NCBI GenBank assembly: GCA_016208495.1
Contig: JACQXX010000055.1
Location: forward strand, 1 to 64,000
DNA length: 64,000 bases
Source of the DNA: Acidobacteriota bacterium
GTDB taxonomy: Bacteria; Acidobacteriota; Blastocatellia; Chloracidobacteriales; Chloracidobacteriaceae
Reading direction: 5' to 3'
Positions 43,606 through 46,522 of this stretch are shown piece by piece (position 1 is the stretch's first letter; each line of letters opens with the position of its first letter). Both the position numbers and the translations under genes were made by a program. The notes beneath the pieces are model-generated. The model worked only from the letters and a program-made list of their open reading frames with translations. It did no database searches and had not been told where the DNA came from.

Positions 43606-43757
43606 TTCCGGGTTCGGGGTTCCGGGTTCCGGGTTCGGGGTTCGGGGTTCGGGGTTCCGGGTCTTCGATTTTAGGTCTTTTTTGTCCTTTTCGTCCTTTT
43701 GGTTGTTTTTCCAGAACTCTGTTTTCAAACCCTGAACCCCGAAACCCCGAACCCTGT
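43606..43757. repeat. Composite repeat module (GGGTTCG, GTCCTTTTC, AACCCCG)
   Basis: GGGTTCC/GGGTTCG heptads (43606-43660) run into GGGTCTTCGATTTTAGGTC, GTCCTTTTC units and AACCCTG/AACCCCG units. It parallels 12632-12749 in order and sequence. It ends at the ThyX-like stop codon. Confidence 0.9.
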
Positions 43758-45328
43758 TAAAACACTCGCTGGTATTCGTCAAGGTCCAGTTTCCACACCC
43801 GCACGCCACAGAAGCGATCACCTTCCGGGCAGATTGGTTTAGAGCGGGCCTGAAGCCGCTGGGTACAGGGAGGCAGCAGGTGCGAGCCGATGTGTGGGTT
43901 GACTTGCCGGACCTGTCGGGCTTCTTCAACCGATGCGCGCCAGATTTCTTCCTGAGCCAGATAACACAGCCGCATCCGGTGTTTGTGATGGAGGTTGGCG
44001 AGGTCAGAAGATTCCGTAAAGCGCACGGAAACTGCATTTGGGAGCAGATAGAGGGCAAATTCGTCTGAGACGCCGTGAGCTTTGAGTTGGTGGATTCGTT
44101 CCCACGAGCGCGCCATCGTGTCGTGATAAAACTGTTCGATATGGGGTTCCTGTTTGATGAGTTCCGGGGTGATGTAATCAGGTTCACCCGTGAAGTGTGC
44201 TGCCAGGACTGGTCGTGAGGCTGGGGTCATCCGGTGGCGTTGATCCTGAGAATCCGCCGTGTGGCTCAATTTTTTGCGGAACGTGTAATGCGGATGAACC
44301 AGTGTCCGGCCAAGTTTCGACATTGTCGCCAGGTTGAGTGATTCGCCAAGCAACCGATTTTGAGTCGGGCTCAGCACCAGTTCAATTGCATCGCTATCAT
44401 TCAGGACTGAGGATGGAAGGCCGAGCACTTCACGGACGGATGCGGCTAAAATACTCTCATTATTGGGCTTGTAATCAATGAGTTTGGCCGTGTATCCATC
44501 CAGGCTCTGATCAAATTCGGTCAAAAACTGCTGGCGAGATGCCGATTGAGTGGCTGTGTGGTGGCTTTCGAAGAATTGAAATTCAGGTGTCTCTTCCAGT
44601 GGAATCGGTTCTTCGAGCACAGTTTTATAGAGCGGGTCGTGGGCCAGGAGCGCCTGAACCATCGCCGTGGCCACTTCGCGTTGTTCGGTCGGAGCATCAA
44701 ATTGCTCGCAGAGCCGGTAATAGCGTAGTAGCGTGATGCCGCTGACGGTGTGGTACATGTAGGCAAATGTCGCCACCGGAAGCACATAGCGGGCGGCTTC
44801 CAACGCGCGTTTGCGGAGCTTGGCCTGGATTTTTTTGTCAGCCGTGTTGTGCTTGGTAAACAGCTTGTTGTACTCGCGGGCCACTACCGGCATCAGGAGT
44901 TCGGTCAGGTGCTCATAGGCGGCCATCTGTTCGTCAATCGCCGTGGTGTACCGCGTGAGTGCTTCACCTGTCAGCGCCGGAATGGCAAATGATCCGGGTT
45001 TGACGGCGACATAGCGCTGGCTGACTTGCTCGCTGTTGTAAAAAGGATGCGAATGCAAAAAGCTCCAGATGAACTGGCGCGAAATATTGACCATCGCAAA
45101 CTGAAAATGAGCGTGCTGATAGGTCGTATGGTGGCCAGCCTGATAGATGCTCTGGGCAAGCGGCTCAAACCCTGAGGTAATGTCTTCGTCCCGGATAATC
45201 CCTTTGCTTGAATAACAGGTCCGTGCCGTAGCCACCACGTTTTTGAATGGTGTCGGAAATGCTTTTTCCAGGCTGACTGCCGGAGCTGGCGAGAGAAAAG
45301 CCGAAGTACGTTGGGAAACTGGGTGCAT
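43757..45328 (-). CDS. Double-length ThyX-like flavin-dependent thymidylate synthase
   Basis: A 523-aa protein, twice the usual ThyX length, made of two ThyX-like halves. The first half (about 20-240) keeps SEQVSQRY (residues 99-106) but has HSH where ThyX has RHR. The second half (about 290-470) has RHR (364-366) and the C-terminal LPNAVSVRFTESSDLANLHHK...EEIWR block, but not the NExSxRY part. Together they contain one split ThyX signature. ThyX makes dTMP from dUMP with FAD and methylene-folate. A C-terminal tail has three Cys (PPC, KPIC, RFC), possibly metal-binding. A GTG start at 45361 is possible. Confidence 0.85.
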   Translation of the reverse strand: MHPVSQRTSAFLSPAPAVSLEKAFPTPFKNVVATARTCYSSKGIIRDEDITSGFEPLAQSIYQAGHHTTYQHAHFQFAMVNISRQFIWSFLHSHPFYNSEQVSQRYVAVKPGSFAIPALTGEALTRYTTAIDEQMAAYEHLTELLMPVVAREYNKLFTKHNTADKKIQAKLRKRALEAARYVLPVATFAYMYHTVSGITLLRYYRLCEQFDAPTEQREVATAMVQALLAHDPLYKTVLEEPIPLEETPEFQFFESHHTATQSASRQQFLTEFDQSLDGYTAKLIDYKPNNESILAASVREVLGLPSSVLNDSDAIELVLSPTQNRLLGESLNLATMSKLGRTLVHPHYTFRKKLSHTADSQDQRHRMTPASRPVLAAHFTGEPDYITPELIKQEPHIEQFYHDTMARSWERIHQLKAHGVSDEFALYLLPNAVSVRFTESSDLANLHHKHRMRLCYLAQEEIWRASVEEARQVRQVNPHIGSHLLPPCTQRLQARSKPICPEGDRFCGVRVWKLDLDEYQRVF

Positions 45329-45437
45329 AAAAACCGAATGGAGGTGCTTGTTGTCGCGCACCTGGCAATCCGAGGGATGGTAGAGGTTCTAAATGATTGG
45401 AGGAAAATGGCTTAAATAGTTTTTAGATAAATATTTC

Positions 45438-45520: not shown

Positions 45521-46060
45521 TCAATCGCCATTGTCATAGATCGCCTGCATTTTACGGATGTTGGCGTCTGGAAACTGACCCGTTGCTCTGACGCGAGCCA
45601 GCATCTTTTCAGCTTCAGCCTGAGTTTTCCCTCCGTACACTGCCAGAAAGTTGTACTCAGCGTTCACGTTTGTGTAACCGGTGAGAAACTCAGAACATCC
45701 ATAGCGAGAAGCAAACACTTTGCGATCTTGAAAGAGCCGCTGTACCCGTTGACGTTCGTCTTCTTTGAAATACCCAGCACAGGGTTTATCGCTTCCAGGG
45801 CCGTCATCAGGCTCAGCTTTGATGCTCTTGAGCAAAATTGCAAAAAAAGGCGCTGAATAGTAAGCCGTCTGCCACTTCAGGTTTTTCGGAAGCGGGAATG
45901 CCAGATCCCACGGGTCGAACCTTCCTCCTCCCGTTGGACAGAGTGCATCCGGTTGGCTGCACACGGCAGCACCGGTTTGAACGCTTCCCTGAGACAATCC
46001 AATCCCGATTGTGGTCATCAGCAAAAAAACTCCGCCTGCCCAGGATGATCGAAATCTCAT
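45521..46060 (-). CDS. Secreted protein, unknown
   Basis: A 179-aa protein with an N-terminal signal peptide (residues 1-25). Four or five Cys in the mature part (CSQPDALC, KPCAGYF, YGCSEF) suggest disulfides. The end, VYGGKTQAEAEKMLARVRATGQFPDANIRKMQ, has the look of a SPOR-type peptidoglycan-binding repeat, but the match is weak. Function unknown. Confidence 0.68.
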   Translation of the reverse strand: MRFRSSWAGGVFLLMTTIGIGLSQGSVQTGAAVCSQPDALCPTGGGRFDPWDLAFPLPKNLKWQTAYYSAPFFAILLKSIKAEPDDGPGSDKPCAGYFKEDERQRVQRLFQDRKVFASRYGCSEFLTGYTNVNAEYNFLAVYGGKTQAEAEKMLARVRATGQFPDANIRKMQAIYDNGD

Positions 46061-46147: not shown

Positions 46148-46522
46148 TCAATAAGCCACTTCGTAGGATGCCGACGTGTTTGGCGTTTCCCAGGCCCGAA
46201 CTTTACAGACTTTGTAGCGGTCAGTATTGATCTGGGCAGCCACCTCGTGCAGCACAAACACCGCAATGTTTTCGGTTGATGGGTTCATTTCGTTGGCAAA
46301 CGGCGGTAAATCATTCAGGTACTTGTGATCCAGGTATTCCATGACTTTTTGCGTGGCTGCCCGGACATCACGAAAGTCCACCAGCATGTGTTTATCGTCA
46401 AGTTTTGGGCCACGCACGTGAACTTCAATGCGCCAGTTATGGCCGTGGAGCGGTTCGGCATTTTCTTCACCACGCAATCGGTGCGCGGCTGAAAAAGAAG
46501 CCTCGATAATTACTTCAAACAT
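46148..46522 (-). CDS. 6-pyruvoyltetrahydropterin synthase family (PTPS-III-like)
   Basis: A 124-aa T-fold enzyme. The zinc ligands are His14, His26 and His28 (SAAHRL, LHGHNW). QueD and classical PTPS have a catalytic Cys four residues before HGH (CxxxHGH). Here there is no Cys, and Glu23 gives ExxHGH (EPLHGH), the motif I recall for PTPS-III. PTPS-III enzymes cleave dihydroneopterin triphosphate to 6-hydroxymethyl-dihydropterin and replace FolB in folate synthesis. I therefore prefer a folate role over queuosine. No queC or queE adjoins it. The 287-bp spacer upstream holds nothing else seen. Confidence 0.86.
   Translation of the reverse strand: MFEVIIEASFSAAHRLRGEENAEPLHGHNWRIEVHVRGPKLDDKHMLVDFRDVRAATQKVMEYLDHKYLNDLPPFANEMNPSTENIAVFVLHEVAAQINTDRYKVCKVRAWETPNTSASYEVAY

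Follow-up and report, generated by a model that had tools for sequence, protein, structure and literature searches.

The PTPS-family gene in the window, by which we mean the whole 64,000-nucleotide stretch of the Acidobacteriota contig analysed here, very probably encodes a PTPS-III enzyme that bypasses dihydroneopterin aldolase (FolB) in folate synthesis and that descends from a hybrid PTPS carrying both a Cys and a Glu. Described directly are its motif, conservation and phylogeny and the presence or absence of genes, from which reaction, substrate and order of events are predicted; the Glu-assisted cleavage chemistry is transferred by analogy from published PTPS-III studies. The biochemistry of PTPS-III and of the PTPS-I/III hybrids is already published, and the occurrence in Acidobacteria is expected from the literature. 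What is added here is that the whole sampled class lacks FolB, together with the probable hybrid ancestry and an apparent family-wide division of labour between two PTPS proteins.

Sequence motif and family assignment

The protein, which starts with MFEVIIEASFSAAHRLRGEENAEPLHGHNWRIEV..., matched the Pfam PTPS profile PF01242 over its full length (126.4 bits, cut-off 22.4; coordinates in Table 1). PTPS proteins are divided by motif into PTPS-I (CxxxHGH), PTPS-II (CxxxxxHGH) and PTPS-III (ExxHGH), the latter being placed in folate synthesis, and CExxHGH hybrids exist which are able to serve folate and queuosine alike (PMC5041015). In the window protein the motif reads N21-A22-E23-P24-L25-H26-G27-H28, hence Glu23 lies three residues before His26 and Ala22 takes the position of the QueD cysteine, four residues before it. 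The first-pass annotation had pointed to the missing catalytic Cys and to Glu23, both of which are evident in the sequence, and had taken ExxHGH as the signature of PTPS-III, in agreement with the published definition. The QueD/PTPS-I motif is absent, with Ala at the Cys position; PTPS-II, i.e. the tetrahydrobiopterin type, was rejected because no Cys precedes HGH; and the hybrid motif is also lacking, the Cys being gone in all ten genomes of the family, though the ancestry lies within the hybrid clade. In the alignment the other active-site motifs are retained (AAH14, HGH, LDH and, at the C-terminus, WET). The fold is taken as settled, since sequence relatives with solved structures exist; one relative in the PDB, Pyrococcus PH0634, carries Glu at the equivalent place (EDVHGH).

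Table 1. Location of the PTPS gene and its motif codons in the window
Feature	Position	Strand	Basis
Probable PTPS-III gene (PTPS family), predicted FolB replacement	46148..46522	(-)	ATG start, 124 aa; PF01242 126.4 bits; ExxHGH without Cys; tree
Glu23 codon GAA, predicted catalytic residue (ExxHGH)	46454..46456	(-)	Sequence; kept in 10/10 family genomes
Ala22 codon GCC, position of QueD catalytic Cys	46457..46459	(-)	Sequence; alignment with E. coli QueD
His26-Gly27-His28 codons, zinc-binding HGH motif	46439..46447	(-)	Sequence; invariant in alignment

Within the family (f1) the former Cys position is occupied by A, P or G and the Glu is fixed in 10/10 genomes, hence ExxHGH is no chance motif. 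These observations also bear on the idea of a paralogue that decays or became inactive after the Cys loss. The loss of the canonical nucleophile would fit such a fate, but the gene is intact in all ten family genomes with 60-75% identity across genera, its Glu and His residues and the rest of the active-site motifs are conserved, and the homologue searches gave no second candidate to fill the folB step. Accordingly, a dead paralogue was rejected, its likelihood being next to nil.

Folate and queuosine genes of the source genome

The source genome (8.4 Mb in 177 contigs, 99% completeness, 0% contamination) contains exactly two PTPS genes according to our genome search. A second, Cys-containing QueD had been raised as a point to check by the first-pass annotation, and it exists: locus L001 (C59:29230-29589) displays HKCARLHGHSF, thus the canonical QueD motif CARLHGH, and reached 105.1 bits on the NCBI QueD equivalog model TIGR03367, above the cut-off of 89.25, whereas the window protein stays just under it with 86.5 bits. 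The queuosine branch, in which queC was also found, has its own QueD in L001, which looks normal.

The prediction that the genome lacks folB held as well. Its profile PF02152 gave no match in the source genome, while the identical search was positive in 10 of 14 control genomes; the absence refers to homologues matched by PF02152. Since folE, folK and folP (over the cut-off) were all found, folate synthesis has its whole pterin branch except the FolB step. PTPS-III membership was judged from the PTPS family (COG0720/PF01242), the ExxHGH motif and a folB-less genome with the remaining pterin-branch genes, and each of these was found; every sequence-testable feature of the window protein fits PTPS-III.

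Distribution of FolB and Glu-type PTPS

Literature data already list Acidobacteria among the phyla with folB missing from many genomes (PMC4674097). In the class of the source organism FolB was found in none of the 78 sampled genomes, FolK in 72 of them. All 10 genomes of the window's family combine a Cys-type QueD with a Cys-less Glu-type PTPS, the 35 genomes of f3 possess a single Cys+Glu PTPS each, and the four of f64 a Cys+Glu PTPS and a second Cys-type one; f2 mostly has a Cys+Glu PTPS plus a Cys-type, f66 mostly a Cys+Glu PTPS. One PTPS, L043 (Blastocatellia bacterium, Acidobacteriota), is identical to that on G051:C25 and was counted once.

In the phylum sample, FolB was found in 39/149 and PTPS in 147/149 genomes. 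Among the fetched proteins of phylum sample and class genomes, ExxHGH occurred in 0/22 folB-containing genomes, for 21 of which every PTPS match was fetched. It occurred in 88 of 115 genomes without folB, a slight undercount since a Glu-type genome with CENPHGH (G036, locus L030) was left out; no Glu-type was found in the other 27, some of which had further PTPS genes among the unfetched. A hand count of labels by family gave 16 families with folB and no Glu-type PTPS versus 17 in which a Glu-type PTPS occurs without folB; the two were combined in no family. Both the genome and the family counts are phylogenetically non-independent.

Natural controls exist in f66. G162 (L129) and G185 (L107) encode proteins of the Cys+Glu clade which kept the Cys and lost the Glu (CANLHGH). 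Both genomes are also without folB, no DHPS (FolP) over the cut-off was found in either, and G162 has no FolK, G185 a weak one. Their weak FolP matches, situated in open frames of approximately 1,240-1,260 residues, resemble the pterin-binding domain found in methionine synthase. Hence, the Glu was lost where folate synthesis appears to be lost. For G123, no PTPS, FolB, FolK or FolP over the cut-off was found. Counter-cases are provided by f67 (G157, G160, G171, G173, G182), f4 (G163, G176) and f68 (G179), in which FolK is present and neither FolB nor a Glu-type PTPS was found; their PTPS loci (L143-L145, L147-L151) carry CRNLHGH or CKNLHGH, and FolP was found in all tested genomes (G157, G163, G179). 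As f67, f68 and most of f4 lack both, the absence of folB alone is no proof of a bypass. These families must either use another route to 6-hydroxymethyldihydropterin or have a FolB too divergent for the model.

Two further observations concern hybrid PTPS genes. In Omnitrophota, Cys+Glu hybrids (L054, L058, L060) lie directly before queC and queE, an adjacency in keeping with a function of the hybrids in queuosine synthesis. G158 contains two Cys+Glu copies approximately 2 kb apart, at C9:136694-137450 (L119) and C9:139044-139400 (L084); one copy has an in-frame TAA, so that the pair reflects either a recent duplication with one copy decaying or a faulty assembly.

Phylogeny and probable hybrid ancestry

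In a midpoint-rooted tree of 115 rows and 125 columns, in which many deep forks are unresolved, the window protein groups with the Cys-less proteins of its own family (SH-aLRT 99). The next sisters of this group, within a class clade (98), are Cys+Glu proteins from its own order (96). L001 falls together with E. coli QueD (97), and the window protein lies outside that clade.

The warning that QueD would be a wrong annotation is thereby borne out, and QueD identity was rejected on the missing Cys, the score under the equivalog cut-off, the separate clade and the real QueD elsewhere in the genome. It could still be argued that the protein acts as 6-carboxytetrahydropterin synthase in queuosine synthesis with the Cys loss being compensated, given its closeness to the QueD model, the descent from Cys-containing hybrids and the queC in the genome. 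However, the canonical QueD is present in the source genome as in all 10 family genomes, and the folB step would stay unfilled, which makes this reading highly improbable.

The simplest reading of the tree, which refines the first-pass annotation together with the class-wide lack of folB, would be an ancestral Cys+Glu protein and a single loss of the Cys in f1, after which this position drifted to A, P or G and the Glu remained unchanged. Since f2 genomes keep a Cys+Glu protein beside a QueD, both forms can coexist, and the tree alone is silent on whether the Cys loss preceded or followed the arrival of the separate QueD. The ten family genomes without this Cys, each with a separate QueD, suggest that an enzyme of two pathways was divided into two in this lineage. 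We therefore regard subfunctionalisation as likely: the bifunctional Cys+Glu PTPS would have lost its Cys once in a family ancestor with a dedicated QueD, and a neighbouring lineage that apparently gave up folate synthesis would have lost its Glu. If true, the two catalytic residues are independently dispensable, depending on the pathway still served.

Genomic neighbourhood

No operon with folate genes was found at the window gene, the sole folate-related neighbour being a ThyX-like gene. It encodes 534 aa with two Thy1 stretches (43757-45361, minus strand), and a 179-aa open reading frame of unassigned function (45521-46060) lies between it and the PTPS gene. In G051 a ThyX-like gene is located directly downstream of the PTPS gene; this neighbourhood is shared by just two genera. 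The other neighbours (HtrA, a hypothetical protein, NamZ) are unrelated, and gene context is uninformative on function.

Predicted function and implications

In the proposed pathway, FolE would convert GTP to 7,8-dihydroneopterin triphosphate. The PTPS fold would hold zinc by His14, His26 and His28, and Glu23, in place of the QueD/PTPS cysteine, would promote cleavage of the C6 side chain to 6-hydroxymethyl-7,8-dihydropterin, which FolK and then FolP could consume, so that FolB is bypassed. The hybrid ancestor (PTPS-I/III) probably worked in the folate and the queuosine pathway alike; next to a dedicated Cys-type QueD, loss of the Cys may have left a folate-only enzyme.

Alternatively, 6-hydroxymethyldihydropterin could be made from dihydroneopterin monophosphate (or dihydroneopterin) instead of the triphosphate. 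The primary PTPS-III paper reportedly found that the bacterial proteins use the triphosphate, and although the sequence cannot separate the substrates, we consider this alternative very unlikely. It has been suggested for some archaeal members, where the PTPS-III substrate might be the monophosphate (PMC5041015), and the Glu of Pyrococcus PH0634 is in the same place.

Acceptance of the PTPS-III assignment corrects a likely QueD annotation and explains the missing folB in the source genome and most of the class. It opens no new kind of system. The Cys+Glu, Glu only and Cys only forms make a clean natural series for testing how, within a single fold, folate and queuosine chemistry is shared out between two residues.

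Comparison with known systems

The closest match is PTPS-III itself (COG0720 with ExxHGH, from Plasmodium falciparum and various bacteria), described as a FolB replacement (PMC3223725; PMC4674097). Fold family, ExxHGH and the lack of the QueD cysteine are common to both, the window genome is likewise folB-less with folE, folK and folP, and no difference appeared in the sequence features compared; the putative descent from a Cys+Glu hybrid sets the window lineage apart. The PTPS-I/III hybrids (CExxHGH, in the sister families CENLHGH) are the nearest relatives in the class, with the same Glu and the same surrounding residues, but the window protein is without the Cys and is accompanied by a dedicated QueD in the same genome. 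With QueD/PTPS-I (CxxxHGH) the protein shares fold family and zinc histidines at approximately 28-30% identity to both E. coli QueD and the QueD of its own genome, whereas it differs in Cys, equivalog score and clade. Finally, FolB, which is absent from the window genome, would deliver the same product to FolK as predicted for the window protein, but it belongs to a separate Pfam family, and its predicted substrate is the dephosphorylated pterin and not the triphosphate.
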